Positions 7,408 to 64,000 of a DNA stretch of 64,000 bases are shown here, piece by piece. Below the pieces are notes generated by a model that was given only the letters and a program-made list of their open reading frames with translations, did not search any database and was not told where the DNA came from. The translations under genes were made by a program, and so were the position numbers. Each line of letters begins with the position of its first letter. The first letter of the stretch is position 1. Origin of the DNA: Acidobacteriaceae bacterium. Its GTDB lineage: Bacteria > Acidobacteriota > Terriglobia > Terriglobales > Acidobacteriaceae. Location of the stretch: the NCBI GenBank assembly GCA_027452245.1, contig DAIDGW010000217.1:62001-126000 (forward strand), given 5' to 3'.

Positions 7408-10400
7408 ATGAAGCTATCAGCGCGTGTTGGGGGTTCGCCTGCTCTGCGAGCCGTCTCTTGTTTTCTATTCGTTGTCTCTCTACTCATTCTGAGCCTGTCA
7501 ACGGTTGCGCTGGCGCAGGAACTGCAAGCAACGCTCACCGGGACGGTTACCGATCCAAGCGGCGCTGTGGTGTCAGGAGCGAAGGTGGTGGTTCACAGTC
7601 AGGACACGGGTGCAGACATTCGCACCGTGACCACGACCAACACGGGCAACTTCAATATCACGAATATTCCTGCCGGGCACTACACGGTCACCGTGAGTCT
7701 GGCTGGGTTTCAAAACTATGTAGCCAGCAATGTGATTTTGAACGTCGCCGAGAAGCACACTCTGGATGTGCAGCTGAAGACCGGACAAGCGACCGAGACT
7801 GTCCAAGTAACCGCTGAAAACACGCCGATTCAAACCACGACTGCCGAAGAGTCGGGCACAGTGACCGGTGATCAGGTTCGCGGGCTGGCGCTGGACAACC
7901 GCAACTTCGAGCAACTGGTATTGCTCCAGCCGGGAGTTTCGAGCCAGCTTCCGGACAAGCCTGGATTTGGTCTAAGCAGCAACACGTCCATCTCGATCAA
8001 CGGCGCGCGTACAGGAGCAAATAACTGGACGGTTGACGGAGCTGACATCAACGACAGCGGATCGAACGGAACGCTGTTAAATACTCCGAGCATTGACGCG
8101 ATTCAGGAATTCACGCTAGAGCGCAGCAACTACGACGCGTCTTTTGGACGCAGCGGCGGCGGGCAGGTTGTGGTGGCAACGCGAACCGGAACGAACCAGT
8201 TCCACGGCAGCGCGTACGAGTTCAACCGCAATAACTTTTACAATGCCAATACCTTCGGAGCCAGAGCTGCCATAGCCTCGGCCATTGATAGCGGTACGCC
8301 GGCTGCAGTTGCAGATGCTGCCAACAAAACGCCAATTGAGCGATATAACGACTTTGGTTTTACCTTGGGAGGCCCACTCTATATTCCCAAACTCTTTCAT
8401 CCGGTGAAGAACAAGACATTCTTCTTCTGGTCGGAGGAATGGAGAAAGGCGAGCACGCCGGGTACAAACATCATCACGGTGCCTTCGGCGGCCGAACTGA
8501 GTGGCGTCTTCTCGGGCCCGATTCCGGTTGCACCTGCCGGCTGTGTGACCACGACAGGTACCACCTCGGCGATTAATCCATCTTGTTTCAGCAAGAACGC
8601 GATTGCCTACCTGAACGGCTTCATGAAAGCGTATCCGGCAGCTGCGAACGGGCAGCTCACCACCAACTTCAGCCAGTTGAACAATTTCCGGCAGGATATT
8701 ATTCGCCTCGACCAGAATGTTGGGGATCGCGTGCGAGTGTTTGCGCGCTACATGCAAGACTCGGTGCCGCAAAACTTCCCCTATGGTTTGTGGGGAGCTG
8801 CCAACTATCCCGGAGTGGAAACGACATCGCTCAATGCTCCCGGAAGGAATCTGGTCATAAACGCGACCGCGACCCTTTCTCCGAGGATTGTCAATGAGGT
8901 GGAGTTTGCCGATTCCTACGGAGCGATCAATTCGGTTCTGACCAACGCAGTGGCGGATTCGCCCGCGTTCACCAGCAAGCTTACCGGTCTTACGACGTAC
9001 CAGGACCCCTACGGTCGTGCGCCCAACATTACTTTTGCGTCGGGTGCGGCTGGTTTGACCAACACGAGCGCGCCCTACTTCGAGCGTAACAAGGACAGGA
9101 ACCTGTTTGACAACGTGTCGTTCCAGCGCGGGAACCATACGATCCGGGCTGGTTTTACCGCCATGTGGATGGTGAAAACGGAGAACGGGGACTCCGGGGC
9201 TGCGACTTTCACTTTCTCCAACAGTAACGGCAATCCTGAGTTTGCTAATTTTCTTTTGGGGCAAGCCACGACCTACACGCAACAGAGTCACGACACAGTG
9301 CCATTCCTTCATTACGTGAACTTTGAAACCTACGTGCAGGACGACTGGAAGGTAACGCCGCGGCTTACTCTCAATCTGGGCGTGAGATACAGCTTCTTCC
9401 CGTCACCGTACGACAGCAACAACACGTTGGTGAACTTCGCTCCCAGTGCGTTTAACGCCAGCAAGGCTGCCGCCATTGATCCGGCCACCGGGCAAATGAC
9501 GGGCGCGGGCGGCCTCAACTCGGCAACCTACGCCAATGGACTGATTTTCCCCGTCGGCAAAACATGTTCCACAGCACAGGGAATCGCGCCGTTGGCGAGT
9601 TGTTCGCCATACGGTGGCATCGTCAACCCCAATTCCAATAACAATTGGGGACCGCGGTTTGGCCTCGCCTACGATCCTTTCGGAGACGGGAAGTGGGCGG
9701 TCCGGGCGGGATACGGGATCTTCTATGACCGTACGCTCAACGGGATCTGGGAGCAAAATGCATTCAACGATCCGCCCCTGGTTCAGACATCAACGGTGAA
9801 TAACAATGGAACGGTCAGCGCCAACATTTTCGATAACGTTGCCAATGGAACGGCCGGCGCTGCACCATTGGGCCCAAGCAGTCTGACCATTACCGGAACG
9901 CCGACGTTCAAAGTACCGAGCTACCAGGACTACAATCTCTCGGTGCAACACGAACTCATGCCGAACACGGTGCTCGAAGTAGGCTATGTCGGGACCAAAG
10001 GCACCCACCTGCTCGGGGATATCAACCTCAACCAACCCACCGTTGCGACCAGATTGGCAAATCCCACGGCCGACGCGAACGCCCTCGTTCCCTACCTCGG
10101 ATACCAGGCCATTGTGTCGCGTGCAACTGTCTTCACCAGCAACTACAACTCTCTGCAAGTTTCATTGAACCGCCGGTTCAGCAACGGGTTGACCCTGGGA
10201 GCGTCTTATACGTGGTCGAAGCTTCTGACCACGAATCCGGTGGATCGAGGTTTAGGTGTCGCGAACGCGTATAACCTCAAAGGAGACTATGGTCTGTCCA
10301 CGCTGAACACTCCACAGATCCTGGTCATAAGCTACGTTTACGACTTCCCTTTCTACAAGAATCAACATAATCTGACGAGCTACGTGCTGGGGGGATGGGA

Positions 10401-10878
10401 GATCTCTGGGATTACAAACTTCCAGACCGGCCAATCTGTAACAGTTACCCAGCCATCGGATCCGTTTGCCACAGCTGCCAACAATAACTCGGGGCTGAAC
10501 ATGGCACGCGGAGCGACGGCTCAACTTCGCGCAGATCTGGTCGGAAATCCGCATGGACCGAAGACAGCAGCCGAGTTCTTCAACACGGCCGCCTTCGTAC
10601 CAGCGGTCGGCCACTTCGGGACTGAGCAACCTGGGACCGTGCTGGGGCCTGGATTCCAGCTCTGGGACATTTCCCTGGTCAAGAATATGAAGTTCGCCGA
10701 ACGTGTCGGACTGCAACTGAGATTGGAAGCGTTCAATGCCTTCAATCACGGCAACCCGCTTTCGATTGACACAAATCTAGGAGATAGCTCGCTCTACGGA
10801 GGCGCGGGCACATTCGGAGAGGTCAACGGCTGGCACGATCCCCGCACGTTGCAACTCGGAGCCAAGATTAACTTTTAG
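7408..10878 (+). CDS. TonB-dependent receptor, Oar-like, chitin locus
   Basis: Outer-membrane receptor of 1156 residues for TonB-driven uptake. Order: signal peptide (about 1-36, ending VALAQ), carboxypeptidase-regulatory-like domain (about 40-125, starting LTGTVTDPSGAVVSGA), plug (LDNRNFEQLVLLQPGV; later DGADINDSGSN), then a large beta-barrel ending LQLGAKINF with C-terminal Phe. The ATG at 7408 has an ideal AGGAGG site 7 bases upstream; the GTG at 7405 would be too close to it. Size and N-terminal extension are typical of Acidobacteriota receptors that work without SusD. The promoter contains the best GntR-type palindrome in the window, so chito-oligosaccharide import is the likely role, although the substrate cannot be read from the sequence. 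Confidence 0.92.
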   Translation: MKLSARVGGSPALRAVSCFLFVVSLLILSLSTVALAQELQATLTGTVTDPSGAVVSGAKVVVHSQDTGADIRTVTTTNTGNFNITNIPAGHYTVTVSLAGFQNYVASNVILNVAEKHTLDVQLKTGQATETVQVTAENTPIQTTTAEESGTVTGDQVRGLALDNRNFEQLVLLQPGVSSQLPDKPGFGLSSNTSISINGARTGANNWTVDGADINDSGSNGTLLNTPSIDAIQEFTLERSNYDASFGRSGGGQVVVATRTGTNQFHGSAYEFNRNNFYNANTFGARAAIASAIDSGTPAAVADAANKTPIERYNDFGFTLGGPLYIPKLFHPVKNKTFFFWSEEWRKASTPGTNIITVPSAAELSGVFSGPIPVAPAGCVTTTGTTSAINPSCFSKNAIAYLNGFMKAYPAAANGQLTTNFSQLNNFRQDIIRLDQNVGDRVRVFARYMQDSVPQNFPYGLWGAANYPGVETTSLNAPGRNLVINATATLSPRIVNEVEFADSYGAINSVLTNAVADSPAFTSKLTGLTTYQDPYGRAPNITFASGAAGLTNTSAPYFERNKDRNLFDNVSFQRGNHTIRAGFTAMWMVKTENGDSGAATFTFSNSNGNPEFANFLLGQATTYTQQSHDTVPFLHYVNFETYVQDDWKVTPRLTLNLGVRYSFFPSPYDSNNTLVNFAPSAFNASKAAAIDPATGQMTGAGGLNSATYANGLIFPVGKTCSTAQGIAPLASCSPYGGIVNPNSNNNWGPRFGLAYDPFGDGKWAVRAGYGIFYDRTLNGIWEQNAFNDPPLVQTSTVNNNGTVSANIFDNVANGTAGAAPLGPSSLTITGTPTFKVPSYQDYNLSVQHELMPNTVLEVGYVGTKGTHLLGDINLNQPTVATRLANPTADANALVPYLGYQAIVSRATVFTSNYNSLQVSLNRRFSNGLTLGASYTWSKLLTTNPVDRGLGVANAYNLKGDYGLSTLNTPQILVISYVYDFPFYKNQHNLTSYVLGGWEISGITNFQTGQSVTVTQPSDPFATAANNNSGLNMARGATAQLRADLVGNPHGPKTAAEFFNTAAFVPAVGHFGTEQPGTVLGPGFQLWDISLVKNMKFAERVGLQLRLEAFNAFNHGNPLSIDTNLGDSSLYGGAGTFGEVNGWHDPRTLQLGAKINF

Positions 10879-10903
10879 CCGGAAATTAGGTTGGGAGGTA
10901 TCA

Positions 10904-10936
10904 GGGCGTACGCGGACGAGCGTACGCCCAAATTTT
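10904..10936. terminator. Intrinsic terminator after the chitin-locus receptor
   Basis: Perfect 10-bp GC-rich stem (GGGCGTACGC, 10904-10913, with GCGTACGCCC, 10920-10929), 6-base loop, then AAATTTT. It lies between the convergent receptor and TPR genes and probably serves both. Confidence 0.8.
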
Positions 10937-10958
10937 GGCTCGAAAGTGACGGAAGAGG

Positions 10959-12179
10959 TTACTGGTTCTCGTTCTTTTTGATTGCCGTCTGGCGTTGCTT
11001 TTCTTGAAGGTCAACCGAGATTTTCTGCTCGCGCACTCCCTCGGCATTATGTCCGCTTCGCCGCAAGGCTGTACCCAGCACGAAATGCGCCTCGGCGTAA
11101 TCCGGATCGATCTGGATTGCTTTGCGGAGCGGCTCGATTGCTAGCTGGGGATGGTTGAGCGCCATCTCCGTGCGTCCCAGACCCAACAGCGCCTCCCGGT
11201 AGCTGCGATTAGCCTTAAGCGCGGCGCGGAAGCACGATTCCGCCTCCTGCAGCTTCGAGTTATTCAAGAGGATCTGTCCCAGGATGAAATTCGCCACGGG
11301 ATCAGTGGGGAAGTGCTGGAGTTCCAACCGAACCTCTTTTTCCGCCAGATCCGTATCGCCTTCGCGCCAGTAGAGATAGCCAAGGCCGGAATGCACTCCC
11401 ATGAAATTGGGATCGGCCTGTTCGGCCGCCTGATACTCCTTGATAGCATCGGCGCGATTCGACATTTCGTCGTAGGCAGTGGCCATCATTACGTGCGCGG
11501 CGGCCGAGTTGGGATTGATTTTCATGATGCGGGCGAACACGCTGGTCAGCGCCTTGTAGTCTTTCATCCGTAAGTACGCCTTGCCGAGCATGTCGAGCGT
11601 TTCGAGGTCGGAGGGATCGGCTTGATTCGCGGATTCCAGATACCTGGAAGCCTCGGCGTAACGATCGAGCGCGAACTCGCAGAGGCCCGCGAGTTCCTGA
11701 ATCTGAAAATCCGCGGGATTTGCAGCTGCAATAGGTTGCAGCAAGGTCATCGCCGGACGGTAGCGTTCGGCTTTGAAATAGGCGATTGCCAGATTGCGTT
11801 GGGTGGCCCGGTCGCCGGGGTGAAATTTCAGCGCATCTTCGTATAGTGGAATGGCCGCCGCTGGACGCCCCATTCGAGCCAACACAATGCCCAGATTGTT
11901 AAGGGCCGCCAGTGAATGCGGATCGATTTTCAGAGCGCTGCGAAGAGCTCTTTCCGCGGCGGGATTGTCATCGCGATGCATCGCCTCCAAAGCCTGCTCG
12001 AGGTACTTATGCATCTGGGCCTGCAAGCTACTGGATGAAGGATGGGGCGCGGACTGCGCGCGCACAACTACGCCATATGGAAACAGCAGCCCCATAACGG
12101 AGATTGACGCGATCCACCGTGCCATCTGATGCATACACATACGCCAGATTCTAGCCGAGTCCGCAGGTGTTTCGTTCAT
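10959..12179 (-). CDS. Secreted or membrane-anchored TPR protein
   Basis: Protein of 406 residues consisting mostly of tetratricopeptide repeats, which form helical scaffolds for protein contacts. The N-terminus has a hydrophobic segment (ARWIASISVMGLLFPYG) followed by VVVRAQS, which fits a signal peptide. At least eight TPR units follow (for example AALNNLGIVLARMGR, and AHFVLGTALRRSGHN near the end). I place the start at the ATG at 12179 because GGGAGGTGC directly precedes it; the longer frame up to 12290 has no signal, and a Met 12 codons later would also fit the signal peptide. It is convergent with the receptor and divergent from the barrel protein at 12498. No enzyme motif is seen. Confidence 0.85.
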   Translation of the reverse strand: MNETPADSARIWRMCMHQMARWIASISVMGLLFPYGVVVRAQSAPHPSSSSLQAQMHKYLEQALEAMHRDDNPAAERALRSALKIDPHSLAALNNLGIVLARMGRPAAAIPLYEDALKFHPGDRATQRNLAIAYFKAERYRPAMTLLQPIAAANPADFQIQELAGLCEFALDRYAEASRYLESANQADPSDLETLDMLGKAYLRMKDYKALTSVFARIMKINPNSAAAHVMMATAYDEMSNRADAIKEYQAAEQADPNFMGVHSGLGYLYWREGDTDLAEKEVRLELQHFPTDPVANFILGQILLNNSKLQEAESCFRAALKANRSYREALLGLGRTEMALNHPQLAIEPLRKAIQIDPDYAEAHFVLGTALRRSGHNAEGVREQKISVDLQEKQRQTAIKKNENQ

Positions 12180-12497
12180 GCACCTCCCGCCCTCATATTC
12201 TGGTGAAGTTACGTGATGGTTATCACCCGCAGGTGTGATTGTTTGCACCGAGGGACTATCTCTGAAGCTCATACGATGAAGTCTGGACATTTGCCCTCGG
12301 GCATATCCAACCCAAGCCCGTTCGCGGTGCCTTAATCATCAGGACGTCGCTGGCAAGATGTATGAGCGCGACAACGACCGCATCGCCTGCCTTTCGTCTG
12401 GCAAAGCATGAGTGGCGGGTATATCCCGCCTCAACTCGCACCACTTCACTCCGCAGACCACAAGGAGTTCCGGGCTATTGAAAGCAAAGGAGACCAG
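12180..12497. other. Divergent intergenic region, no gene seen
   Basis: A 318-bp gap between the TPR gene and the barrel gene. Short symmetric stretches occur (for example around 12210-12240), but none is long or repeated elsewhere in the window. No promoter pair stands out. I see no gene in it. Confidence 0.4.
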
Positions 12498-13601
12498 ATG
12501 TACAAGATCGCAGTAATTCTGGCGCTTCTACTACCAGTGGCAATGTTCTCTCAATCAACCTCTACATCGCCGAGTTCGGCTGAGACATACTCCGAGCAGA
12601 CGCCACCGGATGCGGCAACAAGCACCTCGTCTCATACGTTAAACGAGCCGGAAAGAGGAATATTGTCCTATATCGATTTCGGCGGTAGCTCGAACAGCAG
12701 TGGTCACATACTCACGACCGGATTCAGCCTGGGATATCAGTTCAACGAGCATATTCTGGCGAATGCCCGTGTTCCGTTCTACTATGTCTCGGCCCCTACG
12801 AGTTCCGCAACAACCGCCGGGGCGACGCAGACAACGACTTATACCGATCGGGGCGTCGGCGACCCATCTTTCTCACTCCAGCTTTTGTTTCCCAATCGCG
12901 TTCTGGACTACAGGACTTCGGTCACGACCTGGGTCCCGGTTGCCAACATCAATAGCGGGTTCACGACCGGTTCCACTTTGGTGGATTGGACGAATCATTT
13001 CAGCCAGCGGATTGGCCGATTGCGTCCATTCTCCCAAATTGACATTGCCAACACCGTTCCTGACACTCCGCTGTTCCTGCTTCCCTATACAGCTCAAGGT
13101 TTCAACGCACGGGTTGAAGGAGGCGCTGGGTTCAGCATGACCAAGATTTTTAACGCCGGCGCATCCTTCTATTACGTCGTGCCCTCCGGCCAGCAGCATT
13201 TGTACAGCCGCGAAGTTCAAACGGGCGCGGGCGGAACAGGTGCAAACGGGGGAACTGGAGGGACGGGAGGCAGCGGAGCAGGTGGAGGAAGCGGCACAGG
13301 TGGAACCGGTGGCAGCGGAGGAACCGGAGGAGGCGGAAATGGAGGAAGCGGCGGCGGAATGGGACTTGCCACGATCCATCCACGCGCCACTGGGAATCTC
13401 TACGGGTTTATGACTCAGGAAGTGACAGTCGGAAACGACCTCACCCGGGATCACGGATTCTCAACCTGGCTGACTGCCACCCTACCCCATTTTGTCGATC
13501 TGCAGATTGGATTTACGCGCAGCTACGGGTACGACTTGAACACTGTTTCTTTCGGAATAGGATTTGATCCGGTTCAAGCCCTGCGCCATCGGAACGAATA
13601 G
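12498..13601 (+). CDS. Outer-membrane beta-barrel-like protein with glycine-rich insert
   Basis: Secreted protein of 367 residues with signal peptide MYKIAVILALLLPVAMFSQ. Start 12498 is chosen because AGGAG precedes that Met and the signal peptide begins there; the frame extends upstream without signal. The body has alternating amphipathic strands (FSLGYQFNEHILANARVPFYY, split over two strands, and LQIGFTRSYGYDLNTVSFGI near the end), which suggests a small outer-membrane channel. Between two predicted strands a run of about 48 residues is almost only Gly, Thr, Ser and Ala (13219-13362). A surface loop is the simplest place for such an insert. Function unknown; porin-like transport is a guess from fold alone. 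Confidence 0.75.
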   Translation: MYKIAVILALLLPVAMFSQSTSTSPSSAETYSEQTPPDAATSTSSHTLNEPERGILSYIDFGGSSNSSGHILTTGFSLGYQFNEHILANARVPFYYVSAPTSSATTAGATQTTTYTDRGVGDPSFSLQLLFPNRVLDYRTSVTTWVPVANINSGFTTGSTLVDWTNHFSQRIGRLRPFSQIDIANTVPDTPLFLLPYTAQGFNARVEGGAGFSMTKIFNAGASFYYVVPSGQQHLYSREVQTGAGGTGANGGTGGTGGSGAGGGSGTGGTGGSGGTGGGGNGGSGGGMGLATIHPRATGNLYGFMTQEVTVGNDLTRDHGFSTWLTATLPHFVDLQIGFTRSYGYDLNTVSFGIGFDPVQALRHRNE

Positions 13602-57519: not shown

Positions 57520-58896
57520 CTATCTTGCCGCTTGAGCCAATTGTTTTAGCTCCGCATCCGCCTCCTTGGCTGCTGAGCTCGCTTCGGGAATTATGTCGCG
57601 GCTTCCAAACGAAATGCCGACCTTCTTCAGGAATTCGTTAGGAGGTGTGCCTCCGGCAAAGATCCAGACGTAGTCGTTGGGAATTTCCTGGACGGTTCCA
57701 TTGATGTCTAGAATGACTGACTCCGGCTTGAACTCGACCGGATTGGATTGGAAGAGCACCTTTACCTTGCCCTTCTTCGAGAATTCTTCGATACGCTTAG
57801 TGTTGCGCTCTTTAATTCGGCTGAAACGCTCTCCGCGATAGCAGAGAGTTACTTGGTTGCCAGACTGGTTTGCTAATCCCATAGCGGCTTCCACGGCGCT
57901 GTCTCCCCCGCCGACCACTAGGATTCGCTTATTGATGTAATGATCCGCTTCTATCAGGCGATACATTACCTTTGGCAATTCTTCGCCTTTGACTCCAAGT
58001 TTGCGCGGTTCGCCGGCACGTCCAAGAGCCAAAATGACGGCATGTGTCCGATATTCTCTTGTCGCCGTCTTGACGGTGAAGATGCCAGCCTCATCGCTTT
58101 TCACATCCTCAACCTTTTCTCCTGTCGAGACATTGAAGTCCGCGCGATTCAGAACCATATCCCAGAAAGCGAGCAAGTGCTCTTTGGAAAGCTGCATCTT
58201 CTTGAACTTGCCATACATAGGAAATTCCACTGGACTGGTCATGACCAGCTTCTGCCGCGGATACTTCGCCACCGTGCCTCCAACTTCATCACGTTCAAGG
58301 GTGACGTAATTGAGCTTATTCTCAATAGCCCTCAGCGACGCGCTAATGCCAGCCGGCCCTGCGCCCACAATTACAACGTCGTAAATGCCTTTCGGGGATA
58401 GGACATTCGTTCCGAATCTGCGAGTAATTGTATCAACGCAGTCGCGCCCTTGATTGACAGCATTCTTGATGAGCGCCAGCCCACCAAGTTCGCCGATAAC
58501 GAATAAGTTAGGGATGTTCGTCTCGAATTCTGGAGACAATACTGGCATGTCGGCACCCATTCGGGGATTGGCCATCACCATGGTGATGGCACCCACTGGG
58601 CAGGCATCTGCGCACAAGCCGTGTCCGATGCATTTATAACCATTCACAATCACGGCTTTGCCGGCAATCATGGCGAGTACGTCGCCTTCCGGACAGACTG
58701 AAGTACAAGTGGCGCAGCCGATACAGTAGTTCGTATCGATATGAGGATGTTGCGCTTTCGGTCCCTCAGAAAATAGCTTCCCCTTCTCGGCGGCTGCCTG
58801 CGCTCTTTCGTCTCTCTTCTTCAGACTTCGAAGATAGCCGACGACAAAGAAGAGAATAACGAAGATGCCAATACCCAATGTCAGTAAGTTATCCAT
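57520..58896 (-). CDS. Membrane-anchored [4Fe-4S]/FAD oxidoreductase, YpdA-like
   Basis: Protein of 458 residues. An N-terminal membrane helix (LLTLGIGIFVILFFVVGYL, about 3-21) is followed by two [4Fe-4S] motifs (CIGCATCTSVCPEGD; CIGHGLCADACPVGA, about 57-105) and a thioredoxin-reductase-type flavoprotein domain with FAD site VIVGAGPAGISA and NADPH site ILVVGGGDSAVEAA. The redox CxxC of thioredoxin reductases is missing; the segment GGTVAKYPRQKLVMTSPVEF matches bacillithiol disulfide reductase YpdA. It should pass electrons between NAD(P)H, FAD and the iron-sulfur centres at the inner membrane. The start is the ATG at 58896, 7 bases after the upstream cytochrome gene. Last gene of the redox operon. 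Confidence 0.93.
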   Translation of the reverse strand: MDNLLTLGIGIFVILFFVVGYLRSLKKRDERAQAAAEKGKLFSEGPKAQHPHIDTNYCIGCATCTSVCPEGDVLAMIAGKAVIVNGYKCIGHGLCADACPVGAITMVMANPRMGADMPVLSPEFETNIPNLFVIGELGGLALIKNAVNQGRDCVDTITRRFGTNVLSPKGIYDVVIVGAGPAGISASLRAIENKLNYVTLERDEVGGTVAKYPRQKLVMTSPVEFPMYGKFKKMQLSKEHLLAFWDMVLNRADFNVSTGEKVEDVKSDEAGIFTVKTATREYRTHAVILALGRAGEPRKLGVKGEELPKVMYRLIEADHYINKRILVVGGGDSAVEAAMGLANQSGNQVTLCYRGERFSRIKERNTKRIEEFSKKGKVKVLFQSNPVEFKPESVILDINGTVQEIPNDYVWIFAGGTPPNEFLKKVGISFGSRDIIPEASSAAKEADAELKQLAQAAR

Positions 58897-58903
58897 ACTG
58901 CTC

Positions 58904-59860
58904 TCAGAAGTACCCAAGGACAAATTGCAATGCAATGTGAATTACGGCGAGAACCGCAAAAGCATAGCTGAAGGGTTTATGGACCACGTGCCACATATGG
59001 AACACCTTCTGCGATCGCGACAGAAACAAAATACGCTTGGAAAGAGACGCCTCTGCCGATGCCGCCTGAATTGCACGTTCTAGTTCACGATGACGGGTGG
59101 GAAGAAATCCCGCTACCGTGCTTAGAAGGGCTACGCCCCGCAAGGCGTGGCGGCGCAATCGGGCTACCCGGAACATGCGAAGCATGTCCAGTGCAATCAT
59201 GTATGGGATTGCGATAACAATGGGTAACCTTTTCACCCATTGTTCGTTGGGCAATTTGAGAAGAGCTCTGAGGTCAGCTTCAGGCAAAAGGTTCTGGGCT
59301 GAGAGTTGCTGCCCCAGTTGCTCCTGCATCTCGTGCAACTCTTTCATCGAGAGCTCGGCAGTCGTTACTTTTCGGGGTATCTGCCCGTAAAGGTAGCGGC
59401 CTACCACTCCGCTGGCAGAGACAGCGAACATAATCCAGAACGCCATTCCCGCAATTCCTCTGAATTTCAATGTAGAGTGGAACGCTATGATGAACGGTGC
59501 AGTCAGCCCCATCAAAATATGAATGTCGAGCCAATGGCGGGTGCTGCCAATGGTTGCGAGCCAAGGCCAGTGCTTTCGCAGTGGATAAAGGAATATTCCG
59601 AGAAAGAGTGCGACACCGAGAAATCCCAGGTAAATGCCGATTGTTCCGCTCGGCCGCAGCAGGTGGTGTTTCGGGGAGAAGGGACGATCCATGGCAGAAA
59701 GCTTGTAGTAATCAAACCCATAGATAAAGATAGCTAGATTGATCGCAATAGCGACCGTATAAAGCGCGAGCATCAGCCTCCGATGACTTCTTTCGCCGTT
59801 CGAAGGGGCACTTACGACACCGGGCACTATTCGGGCCGCGGCAGTTGCGTTAGCACTCAT
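58904..59860 (-). CDS. Heme-b-type integral membrane protein
   Basis: Inner-membrane protein of 318 residues with about five helices (LMLALYTVAIAINLAIFIYG, IGIYLGFLGVALFLGIFLYP, HWLDIHILMGLTAPFIIAFH, IAGMAFWIMFAVSASGVVG and the C-terminal PFSYAFAVLAVIHIALQFVL). His residues in DIHILMGL, AFHSTLKF, HMWHVVHKPF and AVIHIA are placed to ligate b hemes, as in cytochrome b and ferric-reductase-like proteins. A cytoplasmic helical region (KELHEMQEQLGQQL) could contact the flavoprotein. Its stop is 7 bases from the flavoprotein start, and its own start overlaps the previous gene (ATGA). A quinone or electron-transfer link between flavoprotein and periplasm is inferred. Confidence 0.85.
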   Translation of the reverse strand: MSANATAAARIVPGVVSAPSNGERSHRRLMLALYTVAIAINLAIFIYGFDYYKLSAMDRPFSPKHHLLRPSGTIGIYLGFLGVALFLGIFLYPLRKHWPWLATIGSTRHWLDIHILMGLTAPFIIAFHSTLKFRGIAGMAFWIMFAVSASGVVGRYLYGQIPRKVTTAELSMKELHEMQEQLGQQLSAQNLLPEADLRALLKLPNEQWVKRLPIVIAIPYMIALDMLRMFRVARLRRHALRGVALLSTVAGFLPTRHRELERAIQAASAEASLSKRILFLSRSQKVFHMWHVVHKPFSYAFAVLAVIHIALQFVLGYF

Positions 59861-60669
59861 TGGTTTGTAACCTTTTCTTCGGTACTGACCGAGAATCTCT
59901 TGTATTCACTGAACTCATGCAAGTTACGCCAGTGCTGCCGGGGAGTCTGTACGTCAACGATTGCCTGGGTTGGGAACCAGTACGCCTCTTTGGAATCGGG
60001 GAACGGTACGGGAGCGAAGTCGATCTCGGAGTGGAATGAATTCAATCCGACATCCTGTAGTGTTGCCCCAATCCCCGCTTCAATTTTGGCGATCGATCCC
60101 GTCTCCGGATCGACCCAGCCTGTGCCGGAAAGCTCCAAGGGATATTCGCGGCCACGCAGAGCCAAAGCCGCCGGACTTTTCATGCCGCGAATGTGCTCAA
60201 AGTTGATCTTGTCAAAGGCGTGGCCATTGATCGTCTCCTGTCCGGCTAAGTCGAAGTGAAATGCCGCCGAATAGTAGGGATGGAAAACGAGAAATAAGGT
60301 TGCAAACCCATTGCTCAACAACATCGTCCTATTGCGACGATCTTGTTTGGCGCGGTGTAAGAGCAGGCGAGACTCCGATAGGTTCAACTCACCTCCCGAA
60401 GTGGACAGGATTACGAGATAGTCATAAGTTGACACTTCTTTTAGTTCAACCTTTTCATCTCTGCTCAACTTTTCCTGCCGAACGTGCTCGGTGCATTTCA
60501 CATCCGAGAATTGGTCAAGAAACGCCGATGTCCGCTTGTTAGCCCGCGCAAGTACCGCGTCGAGCGTCTGCGCAGAAGTCGCGCGACAGACACCGCCGCA
60601 GATAGCTGTTATTAGAGCGACGGTCATCAGAGTTCTCTTCATGGTTCGTTTGCTTTTCTTGCGTCTCAT
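59857..60669 (-). CDS. Secreted protein of unknown function in the redox operon
   Basis: Protein of 270 residues with a basic leader and signal peptide (LMTVALITAICGGVCRATSA). The mature part (SDVKCTEHVRQEKL, YDYLVILSTSGGELNLSESR, FHFDLAGQETINGHAFDKIN, SGTGWVDPETGSIAKIEAGI) resembles outer-membrane-lipoprotein-sorting-like beta folds, with no heme or metal motif. I do not recognise a named family. The start at 60669 overlaps the upstream stop (ATGA), a sign of translational coupling; a Met nine codons later is possible. It may help to assemble or anchor the surface cytochrome and barrel. Confidence 0.75.
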   Translation of the reverse strand: MRRKKSKRTMKRTLMTVALITAICGGVCRATSAQTLDAVLARANKRTSAFLDQFSDVKCTEHVRQEKLSRDEKVELKEVSTYDYLVILSTSGGELNLSESRLLLHRAKQDRRNRTMLLSNGFATLFLVFHPYYSAAFHFDLAGQETINGHAFDKINFEHIRGMKSPAALALRGREYPLELSGTGWVDPETGSIAKIEAGIGATLQDVGLNSFHSEIDFAPVPFPDSKEAYWFPTQAIVDVQTPRQHWRNLHEFSEYKRFSVSTEEKVTNQ

Positions 60670-63230
60670 TCTTTGTGCCTGGACCGGGAGTCAAACCGAT
60701 ATCCCATCGATATCATGAATTGGTTGTAGCTAAAGGGCCCGCGATTGTTTGTGAAATTACCCTGAAGGTAGTAATGCGGCCCGATCGTTGTTTCAACGGT
60801 TCCTGTCACGAAAACAGCACTGTTATTCACCGTGAGCGGAGAATTGAAGTTCTGTTTTCCCCCCAAGACTTCTAGCCGGAACGTGTCCGACATTTGCCGC
60901 GACAGCGAGATCGACTCGTAGAATCCTGTTCCGAACGAGCTGTTGAATCGCGCATAGTGAACATCGGCGCGAAGCCGCATTACAGGGAGTCTGCCAAAGG
61001 TTACGCCATACATTTCGTTCCATGACGATTTGGAATCGCCCGTTCCACTGCTCTTACCCAGCGTGCTCGAAACGAAGATACCCTTGAGAAGTTCCAACCG
61101 TCCCCCGGCGCTGAATCCCTGGAATAAGTACTTGTCGAGCAGACCCGTGCCGACCAGCGTAGGATCGAACGTAGGAATATCTCGAAAATAGTTGTAATTC
61201 GCATCCAGCTCCAGTCGTGGAACCGGATTAATTCGAATCGTGGAGAAGTTCCGGCCCAGTCCCATACCCGGCGTACGTGCTACGCCGTTTCCAACGGGGT
61301 TATCGAATTGCGCCGATTCGTAAAGCGCAATTGTGCGTCGATAAGAAACGCTATCCTCGATGAAAAGGAACGGGCGAGTAATCGCCCAATTCGACATATT
61401 GACTCCAGCGCCGGTGGTGAACGTGTAATGTAACGTGTCGTACGCGCCGCCTTCAAAGTTTACGAAAAGTCCACCCATCCGATTACTGGGACTGTAATCC
61501 CAGGACGACGGGTCAGGCGTGGAGCCAGCAAACATCCCAATGATGGTTCCTTTCGCAACTCTGTCGCCGAGATAACCTCCATCCAGCGTATCCAGACTAG
61601 GAGCCCAGGGAAGATACAGCCGCCCGAATCCCGCCACGATGTCCGAATTCGGGTTGTCATACGTCATGTTGATGTGATAAGTACGGTTAATTAGATCCTG
61701 CAGCGTGGGCTGACTTTGAGCTGAACTCGAAGTTAAACGACCCCGCCAATATCCGCTGAGATTCCAATAGGTGCCGCCGATGCGGGTAATGTCACCGCGA
61801 AAAACAACTCCGGTTTCGGAACTCGACACAACCGAACTGCCGTGCCCAATCGTATCCATGTAGTCCATGCCAATTTCCCCACGGGCCCGATTGACCGAAG
61901 GCAACGGCGGCCGGGGAACTTCCTGACGCGCTTCCTCATCGAGCGTGTCATCTTGCGTGAATGAAACGACTGCGGGGTACTGCCGGGTCGCACTGAGCGT
62001 TCGCTGCTGAACCAAAGCATCCGCGTCTGCATTTGAAAGGTAGGCAAGATCGCCTACTTTGACCGGGCGCTTGGCTGAATGGATATCGGTCACCGCTGAG
62101 GTCTCGGCCACACCAATTACGTCAAGTTCAGCGACTACGTGAGGATCGGCGGCGTTGGCGCTTTCTCCCTGGCGCGCCGGAGTATCGGTCTCCAGAATTT
62201 CGAGTTTCATGCCCTCGGCTAATCCCTGAGCTCGGCCGCCTTCCAGATAAACCGCTCCTTCGGCGACGTACTTCACTTTGAATACGGTCTTCAAATTCGG
62301 ATCGTCGCTGCGCGCAATCATTGTCGCAGCGTGATTCGACTGGGCGCTCGACGAGGAAGACGTCGGTTCGCCCTCAGGTTGCGCGTTGTGAGCTATTGTG
62401 GATACGCCCGCGATTGGCGACGAAGAACTTGCCACGCTGGGAGAAGTGACGCTGGGCGTATTTGGAGCGGTCTGGAACACCGCGCCCATTGCGTCCGAAG
62501 GAGAGGGTTTCGTCATTCCTGCTCGTGGACTTGATGGTGCGACTGCCGTCGCGATTTGCCTCTGATCGAAAGTCTGCTGACCAGGAGCGTTCGCGATAGA
62601 AGTTCCGGAATCAGGAGAGGCCGTACCGGTTGCCTGCTGCACGGGAATAGGACTGGTTTGTGTTGCTGTTCCTGAAGCATTGTCCGGAGCCTGCATTCCT
62701 GGTGCTGGCAGAGGATTACCCGGCGGTGTCGACGCATCGCCAGCGGCAATTGAGCGATTCCCCTGCCGGCGGTGGAATATCCCGGAAAGCGTCCCTGACA
62801 TGGCCGCGGCGGGAGCGCCCGCACCCGAATTTCGGGCAGCGGCAGCGTCGACCAGGAGAATCACTCGATTCCCTTCAGCCTTGACTGAAAAAGAATGGGA
62901 CTGATCCAGATCAATGACTAGCCGTGTGACCAGCGGATTTGCGCTGTGCCGCGCAATCCTGATGCTTCGAATTCCATTCTTGCCGACGTCAATCCTTCTG
63001 TCGTTCTGAGCTGGTTCGATTCCATGGAAGTCCAACAGGATCCGGGAAGGGTGCGTCGCTGTCTCTGTAACTGGCGAAACAGGAGTGCTGAGAACAATTT
63101 CCACACGAACAGCTTGGCCGGCCAATGTCACTTTGACATCCTGCAGCGTTGCTCTTGCAGGCGCATTCTGCGCTATTCCGGACGTCAGAAGTAACGTACA
63201 GGTCACGATACCTATCCCCAAGACTTTCAT
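60666..63230 (-). CDS. AMIN-domain outer-membrane beta-barrel protein
   Basis: Protein of 854 residues. Signal peptide (about 1-20), AMIN domain (about 28-130; VRVEIVLSTPVSPVTETATH, RILLDFHGIE, SIRIARHSANPLVTRLVIDL), a long Ser/Pro/Gln/Thr-rich linker (about 145-310), a small beta domain (VKYVAEGAVYLEGGRAQGL) and a C-terminal half of many amphipathic strands (YWNLSGYWRGRL, LRADVHYARFNSSFG, FRLEVLGGKQ, ending FMISMGYRFDSRSRHKE). AMIN domains bind the cell wall; the C-terminal half looks like an outer-membrane barrel. It lies 78 bases after the multiheme cytochrome gene and overlaps the next gene. A pore that holds or passes the cytochrome is the attractive reading. Confidence 0.85.
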   Translation of the reverse strand: MKVLGIGIVTCTLLLTSGIAQNAPARATLQDVKVTLAGQAVRVEIVLSTPVSPVTETATHPSRILLDFHGIEPAQNDRRIDVGKNGIRSIRIARHSANPLVTRLVIDLDQSHSFSVKAEGNRVILLVDAAAARNSGAGAPAAAMSGTLSGIFHRRQGNRSIAAGDASTPPGNPLPAPGMQAPDNASGTATQTSPIPVQQATGTASPDSGTSIANAPGQQTFDQRQIATAVAPSSPRAGMTKPSPSDAMGAVFQTAPNTPSVTSPSVASSSSPIAGVSTIAHNAQPEGEPTSSSSSAQSNHAATMIARSDDPNLKTVFKVKYVAEGAVYLEGGRAQGLAEGMKLEILETDTPARQGESANAADPHVVAELDVIGVAETSAVTDIHSAKRPVKVGDLAYLSNADADALVQQRTLSATRQYPAVVSFTQDDTLDEEARQEVPRPPLPSVNRARGEIGMDYMDTIGHGSSVVSSSETGVVFRGDITRIGGTYWNLSGYWRGRLTSSSAQSQPTLQDLINRTYHINMTYDNPNSDIVAGFGRLYLPWAPSLDTLDGGYLGDRVAKGTIIGMFAGSTPDPSSWDYSPSNRMGGLFVNFEGGAYDTLHYTFTTGAGVNMSNWAITRPFLFIEDSVSYRRTIALYESAQFDNPVGNGVARTPGMGLGRNFSTIRINPVPRLELDANYNYFRDIPTFDPTLVGTGLLDKYLFQGFSAGGRLELLKGIFVSSTLGKSSGTGDSKSSWNEMYGVTFGRLPVMRLRADVHYARFNSSFGTGFYESISLSRQMSDTFRLEVLGGKQNFNSPLTVNNSAVFVTGTVETTIGPHYYLQGNFTNNRGPFSYNQFMISMGYRFDSRSRHKE

Positions 63231-63308
63231 ATATCCCTAACTCGCTGGCCTCGTTTCTTACCTGTCTCCCTGCCATGATTCTGTTGGGCTCATGCGCACT
63301 GCTGCTTT

Positions 63309-64000
63309 CTAGTCGCCTTGTCCTGTGGGATGGCACTGATAGCAATTCGTGCTGTTGTATACGTACCCGTTTACGTTCGGGTGCTGGAAGTTCGCAGAAT
63401 TGTTGTTGCCATGACATCCGGTGCACTGGAACACCGAGTAATCATTCGAATTGGTGTGACACGTCTGGCATATGTTATTTGCACTGCCATGCGTCGTCGG
63501 GAACTGTGTGTACTGCGAGTGGTTGAACGTCGCGCCCGTCCATGCGGTGGTGTTATGACAGGTCTGGCACGTTGTCGGAAAGTACTGTGGTTGCGCTGCG
63601 TGCCCGGGATTCGTTGTGTTGTTGTAATCCGTCTGGTGGCAGCCGATGCAGACCGTCGGCAGCGTAGTGTAGTTGTTATTCACGTGACAATCGCTGCACT
63701 GCCGCGGTGGAACCGTGTGTGATCCAGTCAGCGGAAATGCTGTGTTGTTGTGGTTGAACGTGGAATCTGTCCATACGGTCGTGTCGTGGCACAGGTCACA
63801 CTGCTGCGGAAATCCCGCGGCTGCGTGCGCCGGATTGGTAGTGTTGTTGTAATCCTTGAGATGGCATGTTACACACGCTGTGCTATTGAGGGTGTAGTTG
63901 CTGTTAGTGTGGCAGTCGGTGCACAGCCGCGGTGGGACCGTGTGCGCGCCCGTTAAAGTAAAGCCGGTGGTTGCGTGATTAAATGTGCCGTCCGTCCACA
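63309..64000 (-). CDS. Multiheme cytochrome c, cut by window edge
   Basis: The frame is open from the right edge to the stop at 63309; 230 C-terminal residues are visible. It contains nine CxxCH heme-binding motifs (CTDCH, CVTCH, CDLCH, CSDCH, CIGCH, CQTCH twice, CTGCH, CYQCH). The sequence is built of repeats of 75 residues (225 bp) with three hemes each and shared segments such as HTVPPR, DYNNTTNP and TFNH. The protein is rich in Asn and Thr, fitting an extracellular location. The start and any signal peptide lie outside. It heads the visible redox operon and is the likely terminal electron carrier of the group. Confidence 0.92.
   Translation of the reverse strand, partial: WTDGTFNHATTGFTLTGAHTVPPRLCTDCHTNSNYTLNSTACVTCHLKDYNNTTNPAHAAAGFPQQCDLCHDTTVWTDSTFNHNNTAFPLTGSHTVPPRQCSDCHVNNNYTTLPTVCIGCHQTDYNNTTNPGHAAQPQYFPTTCQTCHNTTAWTGATFNHSQYTQFPTTHGSANNICQTCHTNSNDYSVFQCTGCHGNNNSANFQHPNVNGYVYNSTNCYQCHPTGQGD

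Follow-up and report, generated by a model that had tools for sequence, protein, structure and literature searches.

A conserved multiheme cytochrome operon of Acidobacteriota as a candidate trans-envelope electron conduit

What common function could unite five contiguous minus-strand genes lying at positions 57520-64000 of a 64,000-nucleotide stretch of Acidobacteriaceae bacterium DNA (assembly GCA_027452245.1, contig DAIDGW010000217.1, positions 62,001 to 126,000 of the forward strand; this whole stretch is hereafter called the window)? A preliminary description, made from the letters of the window, had suggested that they build an electron conduit from NAD(P)H to the cell surface, composed of a multiheme cytochrome c, an AMIN/beta-barrel protein, a secreted protein, a heme-b-type membrane protein and a membrane-anchored flavoprotein with two [4Fe-4S] clusters. 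All five genes were found at this place. The window belongs to a contig of 138 kb, and extension to the right, proposed in the same description as a way to find more cytochromes, completed the truncated cytochrome gene (25 CXXCH heme motifs) and then revealed a second one (23 CXXCH) in the same direction. We consider it probable (roughly 65%) that the resulting operon is a trans-envelope electron conduit of Acidobacteriota with a new architecture. This reading is based on the gene set and its order, the heme motifs, the candidate His ligands, the modelled folds and the co-occurrence of the genes, that is, on sequence and models. The operon contains the following genes (TM, transmembrane; aa, amino acids):

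57520..58935, minus strand: fr, 471 aa (457 aa if translated from the ATG at 58893), predicted Fe-S flavoprotein with a membrane anchor
58904..59860, minus strand: cb, 318 aa, predicted cytochrome b of the membrane with 5-6 putative TM segments
59857..60669, minus strand: sec, probably secreted or periplasmic protein with no family identified, 270 aa, hydrophobic signal-like N-terminus
60666..63230, minus strand: amin, AMIN/barrel protein, 854 aa, signal-like N-terminus
63309..64000, minus strand, cut by the window edge (full gene to window-equivalent position 65327): mhc1, long multiheme cytochrome c, 25 CXXCH
window-equivalent 65604-67688 (10604-12688 of the fetched stretch L002), same direction as mhc1: mhc2, second multiheme cytochrome, outside the window, 23 CXXCH

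In L002, which runs past the window edge, the complete mhc1 occupies positions 8309-10327 and encodes 654-672 aa depending on the start chosen; about 330 bases, counted from its ATG, separate it from mhc2. The true start of fr is probably the ATG at 58893, because most fr homologues begin there. With this start, a 10-base gap separates fr from cb; at two of the other junctions the genes overlap by 4 bases, and at the last there is a gap of 78 bases. Sites predicted by promoter and terminator scans were not more numerous than in shuffled sequence.

Conservation of the gene cluster

Public genomes were scanned for relatives of cb and the best 80 of 371 were kept; by their titles, all 80 belong to Acidobacteriota or to genera or orders of that phylum. 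The neighbourhoods of the nearest relatives display the full six-gene order, mhc2 (23-heme), mhc1 (long), amin barrel, sec, cb and fr, and in many more distant ones cb lies beside mhc2 or mhc1. All four genes upstream of cb are present in 44 of the 47 named loci that offer at least 9 kb upstream (sec in 47, the barrel gene in 47, mhc1 in 46 and mhc2 in 45), and fr stands beside cb in 58 of the 64 loci with at least 2.5 kb downstream, 53 of them with both genes on the same strand. These locus counts, like the residue counts given below (113 and 82 sequences), include L093, L104, L121 and L134, which, judging from their lengths, are apparently the same contigs as L034, L037, L041 and L042 and were left out of the distance analysis.

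When 297 whole genomes from the phylum were searched for cb at the protein level, 51 gave a match at E<=1e-5 and 33 of them one at E<=1e-30, the latter being called strong-cb genomes. A match resembling mhc2 (E<=1e-20), which may be partial and which in a few genomes lies on another contig than cb, was found in 37 of the 297, namely in 33/33 strong-cb genomes and in 4/264 others. For fr (E<=1e-60) the corresponding numbers are 28 genomes in total, 26/33 and 2/264. Recurrence of the gene order and co-occurrence in other genomes, on which the initial proposal had been made to depend, are thus both observed. They also bear on the explanation that unrelated neighbours were brought together by chance. 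The patchy distribution speaks for such an explanation and nothing else does; since the order is kept in 44/47 loci with enough upstream sequence, and with co-occurrence at 33/33 against 4/264 genomes, the survey refutes it and the probability left to it is practically nil. Protein distances compared across the 46 loci with all five tested genes (Mantel test) are most closely correlated between cb and sec (0.84), sec and amin (0.79) and cb and amin (0.74).

Predicted properties of the encoded proteins

Two His pairs located 14 residues apart on TM helices are the pattern of di-heme transmembrane cytochromes b, and cb displays it: H114/H128 and H294/H308, each with a 14-residue spacing, lie on two TM helices. 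The four His were present in 29/29 sequences of a first alignment (29 of 39 loci). A recount that took in every cb locus scoring more than 100 bits found H114/H128 in 113/113 sequences and H294/H308 in 112/113, the one gap falling in a broken open reading frame (ORF). Judging from these residues, cb, a heme-b-type membrane protein in the preliminary description, is expected to bind two hemes b, and the presence of four conserved His in every complete cb among the 113 sequences goes against a heme-free protein. In Pfam, cb matched DUF4405 alone and under the cutoff (E 0.0026), and in NCBIfam it matched no b-cytochrome family at E<=0.01. For sec, no Pfam match was obtained, and a scan of 8 of the 87 sec ORFs returned no meaningful family.

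The flavoprotein has one N-terminal TM segment, two Fe-S cluster motifs and a FAD/NAD(P) domain (residues 183-447) preceded by a second FAD motif (~128-175). In the 24 of 82 ORFs that were aligned, there is no lysine or arginine in the 12 residues before the TM segment and a mean of 4.2 in the 15 after it; a cytosolic body is therefore expected. The first cluster motif (C71/C74/C77/C81) keeps its four Cys in 82/82 sequences, these being all fr loci above 500 bits. In the second (C102/H105/C108/C112), His105 occupies the canonical position of the second Cys, and residue 105 is His in 81/82 aligned sequences and Gln in one. The initial assignment as a two-[4Fe-4S] flavoprotein is consequently kept for the two motifs and the membrane anchor and amended for the second motif, where a cluster with unusual ligation via His105 is possible. 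By pattern count, 14/78 fr homologues, for example those at L034, L037, L100 and L122, carry a double zinc-ribbon-like insert (CPRC...CxxCG) that separates the Fe-S domain from the TM segment.

Residues 183-447 of the fr model (mean predicted local distance difference test score, pLDDT, 76.9) superimpose on Bdr (YpdA, 7a7b) with Z 24.5 and a root-mean-square deviation (rmsd) of 2.3 over 263 aligned residues, the alignment ending at residue 268 of the 323-residue chain. Residues 122-182 alone retrieved 31 PDB sequences, each weakly (best E 0.076); all are flavoproteins, by name of the disulfide-reductase or glutamate-synthase/ferredoxin-reductase kind, and the matched parts, taken as the second FAD motif, fall late in each chain. 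In the distant homologue L069 the same motif (ETNVPGLY..) sits after the NAD domain. Judging from these late matches and from the motif position in L069, the last part of the YpdA fold seems to have moved forward in fr, which would thus be a circular permutation of that fold. It has the FAD/NAD(P) fold in common with 7a7b and differs from YpdA (Bdr) by its added ferredoxin and TM parts, by the second FAD motif at the front and by the replacement of the catalytic cysteine; against the YpdA model TIGR04018 it scores 172.9 bits (cutoff 339.9). The cysteine concerned, in the YpdA motif GGGPCG, is aligned to Ala in 76/82 and to Gly in 6/82 fr sequences, and a role of fr as disulfide reductase was rejected on this ground. 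What remains of the YpdA-like reductase proposed at first is the fold, in a protein that lacks the cysteine, is apparently permuted and is absent beside cb in 6/64 loci.

The long cytochrome mhc1 consists of tandem triheme domains, units of 75-77 aa that each contain 3 CXXCH. Once the signal region is removed, it contains 25 CXXCH, 25 other His and zero spare Cys. It is poor in lysine and arginine (3.5%) and rich in asparagine and threonine, in contrast to the basic mhc2, whose isoelectric point is calculated at 8.8 and which has 27 other His beside its 23 CXXCH. Among relatives, the CXXCH number of mhc2 is 23 in 40/44 ORFs and that of mhc1 ranges from 12 to 79, being equal to 1 modulo 3 in 42/52 ORFs (these counts omit mhc ORFs that contain under 10 CXXCH or reach the start of their locus, and some of the ORFs counted are probably frameshifted). 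The median of other His per heme is 1.01 in 76 mhc1-like ORFs (at least 18 CXXCH) and 1.22 in 71 mhc2-like ORFs. In the relative with 79 CXXCH, from a Candidatus Solibacter metagenome-assembled genome (MAG; L139), a 225-base unit is repeated 19.9 times in the DNA, and the repeat can equally be read as 10.1 copies of a 444-base unit with 81% matches; the length of mhc1 there has therefore grown by tandem duplication. The tandem-repeat finder gave zero DNA repeats in the mhc1 and mhc2 genes found here, and among PDB sequences none matched mhc1 at E<=0.01. Hemes are spaced by about 0.8 nm each in solved multiheme cytochromes, so that 23 hemes would come close to the width of the periplasm and 25-79 hemes would extend over some 20-60 nm.

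The amin protein comprises an AMIN domain (27-127), a disordered linker (133-311), a FlgT_C-like region (~315-400) and a barrel (448-847), which is 22-stranded in the model (mean pLDDT 70.1, predicted template modelling score 0.50). The barrel model superimposes on OpdO (Z 17.1, 272 aligned, rmsd 4.5) and PiuA (Z 17.1, 357 aligned, rmsd 5.3). Among the matches of Foldseek and VIA-align, ushers and porins of the outer membrane and TonB-dependent transporters predominate, in agreement with a membrane-located barrel; the pilus ushers FimD/PapC rank first in Foldseek, and transporters and porins in VIA-align. MtrB is not among the 50 VIA-align rows listed, which excludes nothing. At E<=0.1, AMIN was detected in 15/43 and FlgT_C in 13/43 barrel proteins (43 of 76 ORFs scanned), and AMIN was rejected as a defining feature. 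Of the AMIN/beta-barrel protein announced by the preliminary description, the model thus upholds a 22-stranded barrel of outer-membrane type, and the AMIN part proves optional.

The usher matches recall a quite different function, in which the barrel and the FlgT_C-like domain would be a secretion pore for the finished cytochrome, sec its chaperone, and cb with fr a device keeping the heme-attachment cysteines or the cytochrome reduced. The rank of FimD/PapC in Foldseek and the disulfide-reductase fold of fr agree with this assembly function, but the YpdA cysteine is replaced in all 82 fr sequences, the highest VIA-align ranks are transporters and porins, and cytochrome c maturation is not known to need heme-b transmembrane transfer. 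We hold it to be very unlikely.

The properties of the two cytochromes and of the barrel gene must also be set against a periplasmic electron store, or capacitor: both cytochromes would be periplasmic and would hold electrons when acceptors are scarce, the barrel being an unrelated porin or exporter. GSU1996, GSU0592 and GSU2210 are long monomeric periplasmic nanowires of Geobacter for which a storage role has been proposed (PMC10138318). The signal-like N-terminus of mhc1, for which no surface anchor was identified, would suit such a store as well. On the other hand, all 47 loci with enough sequence carry the barrel gene upstream of cb, 46 of them together with mhc1, its protein distances track those of cb and sec, and the composition of mhc1 is unlike that of the basic mhc2. 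Storage appears unlikely on balance, although it deserves some weight.

Proposed electron path

In the trans-envelope conduit that we favour, a carrier in the cytosol, which is probably NAD(P)H or ferredoxin, would donate electrons to the membrane-anchored fr, from which they would pass to cb and cross the inner membrane via its two b hemes. The fixed-length, 23-heme mhc2 would then carry them in the periplasm and deliver them, through or beside the outer-membrane barrel, to mhc1, and this length-variable triheme-repeat cytochrome would hand them to an extracellular acceptor, for instance Fe(III) minerals or humics. The flow is probably outward, to Fe(III) or humics. We regard these as the likeliest acceptors because palsa, bog, fen or groundwater is named as the origin of many MAGs that carry the operon and because members of the Acidobacteriota have been reported to reduce Fe(III) (PMC8790237). 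With respect to the conduit first proposed, a multi-protein electron chain in conserved order is retained, and its two ends, NAD(P)H and the cell surface, are what we infer.

The same chain could be used inward, with Fe(II), partner cells or reduced humics as electron sources and the quinone pool or NAD(P)+ as destination. The sequence gives no direction, Fe(II) oxidisers possess the related Mto/Pio barrels, and where fr is not beside cb another cytosolic partner is possible. However, many carriers come from palsa, bog, fen and groundwater and belong to lineages taken to be heterotrophic, and on energetic grounds a flavoprotein with an NAD(P) domain would more easily suit a donor role. Uptake seems to us quite improbable.

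Several observations weigh against the outward conduit. The electron path, the donor, the direction, the surface position of mhc1 and the acceptor are all things that we infer from sequence and models, and mhc1 carries no identified surface anchor. The barrel resembles transporters, porins and ushers and not specifically a cytochrome-holding barrel. The weakest link of the proposed chain is fr, the part most often missing beside cb: of the six loci concerned, four belong to genomes with a good copy elsewhere and two to genomes with only weak matches, and 7/33 strong-cb genomes have no fr at E<=1e-60. Its distance correlations with the other proteins are 0.28-0.48, the lowest two being 0.28 with amin and 0.30 with mhc2, and the latter value was reached in 11/999 permutations. 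Those of mhc2 are moderate (0.48 with cb, 0.49 with sec and 0.56 with amin), and, as the Mantel test had no unrelated-gene control, species relatedness contributes to all these values. The system is patchy, the sole other genome of the same genus that was searched (G084) giving no match. Finally, a cultured carrier is known, Occallatibacter savannae AB23 (L132), and its congener Occallatibacter bavaricus is described as growing under microaerophilic and not under anaerobic conditions (PMC12935467), which would tell against an obligately anaerobic role.

A broader hypothesis, which we advance tentatively and consider doubtful as a whole, is that of a phylum-specific machine for extracellular electron transfer in which electrons from NAD(P)H would enter the di-heme cytochrome b through a permuted Fe-S flavoprotein, bypassing the quinone pool, would be bridged over the periplasm by 23 hemes and would leave through a single-chain external wire of 12-79 hemes tuned by duplication of triheme units; soil and peat Acidobacteriota would thereby possess an unrecognised route of Fe(III)/humic respiration. 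Electron input from fr to cb would skip the quinol dehydrogenases that known conduits use. Acidobacteriota are among the commonest soil bacteria, and the operon is a concrete candidate, with a cultured carrier, for a route other than Shewanella- or Geobacter-like pathways. The mhc1 relatives moreover provide single-chain heme wires in a naturally graded range of lengths.

Comparison with known systems and neighbouring loci

A barrel encoded beside multiheme cytochromes is the feature that the operon has in common with the porin-cytochrome conduits (MtrCAB/MtoAB/PioAB; Omb-Oma-Omc and Ext of Geobacter). It differs from them by its heme numbers (23 and 12-79 CXXCH, not decaheme pairs) and by the inclusion of an inner-membrane cytochrome b, mostly with a flavoprotein too, in the cluster. 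The family models of these conduits were matched below their cutoffs: mhc2 scores 53.4 bits (cutoff 192.2) with TIGR03508, the model of the DmsE family of decahemes, which is akin to MtrA, and mhc1 scores 27.1 bits (cutoff 209.3) with the OmcA/MtrC-family model TIGR03507. The barrel matched 0 NCBIfam families at E<=0.01, thus neither MtrB nor PioB (TIGR03509), and a search of the same genome with TIGR03509 was silent, yet control genomes gave no signal either. By the tests made, the operon would work like a porin-cytochrome conduit but is outside the described families.

With the triheme-repeat nanowire cytochromes of Geobacter (GSU1996 and kin, c7 type), mhc1 shares tandem triheme domains in a single chain; it matched Cytochrome_C7 above its cutoff and nanowire_3heme (TIGR04257) slightly below (36.9 bits, cutoff 40). 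In GSU1996, which contains 12 hemes, each domain includes one His-Met heme (PMC10138318), whereas mhc1, with 25 CXXCH and as many other His, would have no need for Met, and its relatives reach 79 CXXCH.

Within the phylum, a distant paralogous system is present at L066-L071, where homologues of cb and fr are encoded close to two genes of 10 CXXCH in 6/6 cases. Their fr has ~790-810 aa as compared with 471 aa here; it was read through in L069 only, where the motif order is normal (non-permuted) and extra C-terminal Fe-S motifs are present, together with what we take to be cNMP-like C-terminal domains, one 10-CXXCH gene of this locus presumably including FHA-like domains. After cb and fr, these loci present the two 10-CXXCH genes and two further large proteins, and no 23-heme or long cytochrome was seen in the fetched stretches.

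The preliminary description had added that the set matched no known one. No described system with this gene set, and among the titles listed none naming it, was found in the literature searched, outside which subscription papers and preprints lie, and the claim stands within that range. 'AMIN domain' and 'multiheme cytochrome' are co-mentioned in 0 papers of this literature, a 2014 survey of porin-cytochrome clusters names neither Koribacter nor Solibacter in its main text, and the term 'Acidobacteri' is absent from the main text of a survey of novel multiheme clusters (PMC11475568). In the phylum itself, the genome of Holophaga encodes porin-cytochrome complexes with MtrB- and Ext-type barrels (PMC7399161). 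Among 24 Acidobacteriota genomes, mtrA/mtrB candidates are reported from several strains, with no complete mtr/omc operon, and the authors inferred that the surveyed strains do not use Shewanella- or Geobacter-like pathways; the same paper mentions an omcA/mtrC-related cytochrome cluster in Geothrix fermentans (PMC5900883). A 16-heme cytochrome similar to one of Koribacter versatilis was reported from a peat metagenome (PMC3669403), and large proteins with at least 8 CXXCH from all wastewater Acidobacteriota MAGs of another study (PMC8100337). The present gene set is not described in the parts examined of these last two papers, nor in those of PMC6018796 and PMC12977616.

Next to the operon, beyond mhc2, lies a divergent gene pair on the plus strand (L002 13076-15128, window-equivalent 68076-70128). 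The first gene encodes a protein with 8 CXXCH, an N-terminal TM segment, a Multi-haem_cyto match and a below-cutoff similarity to hydrazine dehydrogenase, and the second a membrane protein without family. Neither has a relative above 60 bits in the 80 named loci, whose flanks extend to 10 kb at most, and the two genes were therefore not counted as operon members. As the pair lies more than 8 kb from cb here, it could have escaped notice where mhc1 is longer; one distant relative (72.7 bits) was seen in L048.

Elsewhere in the same genome, where PF01578 (cytochrome c assembly family) has 5 matches, assembly-family ORFs lie beside ORFs with 16, 4, 11 and 4 CXXCH (L172, C81:54001-74000), a region that is possibly another electron-transfer cluster. 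At L178 and L179 (C133 and C247), 5-CXXCH ORFs adjoin large ORFs that, from their first residues, we take to resemble Fe-S/membrane subunits of alternative complex III or of polysulfide-reductase-like operons. A 1211-aa ORF at 1707-10387 of L173 (C114), near ORFs with 6 and 11 CXXCH, presumably resembles pyruvate:ferredoxin oxidoreductase by its N-terminus and would hint at anaerobic metabolism.

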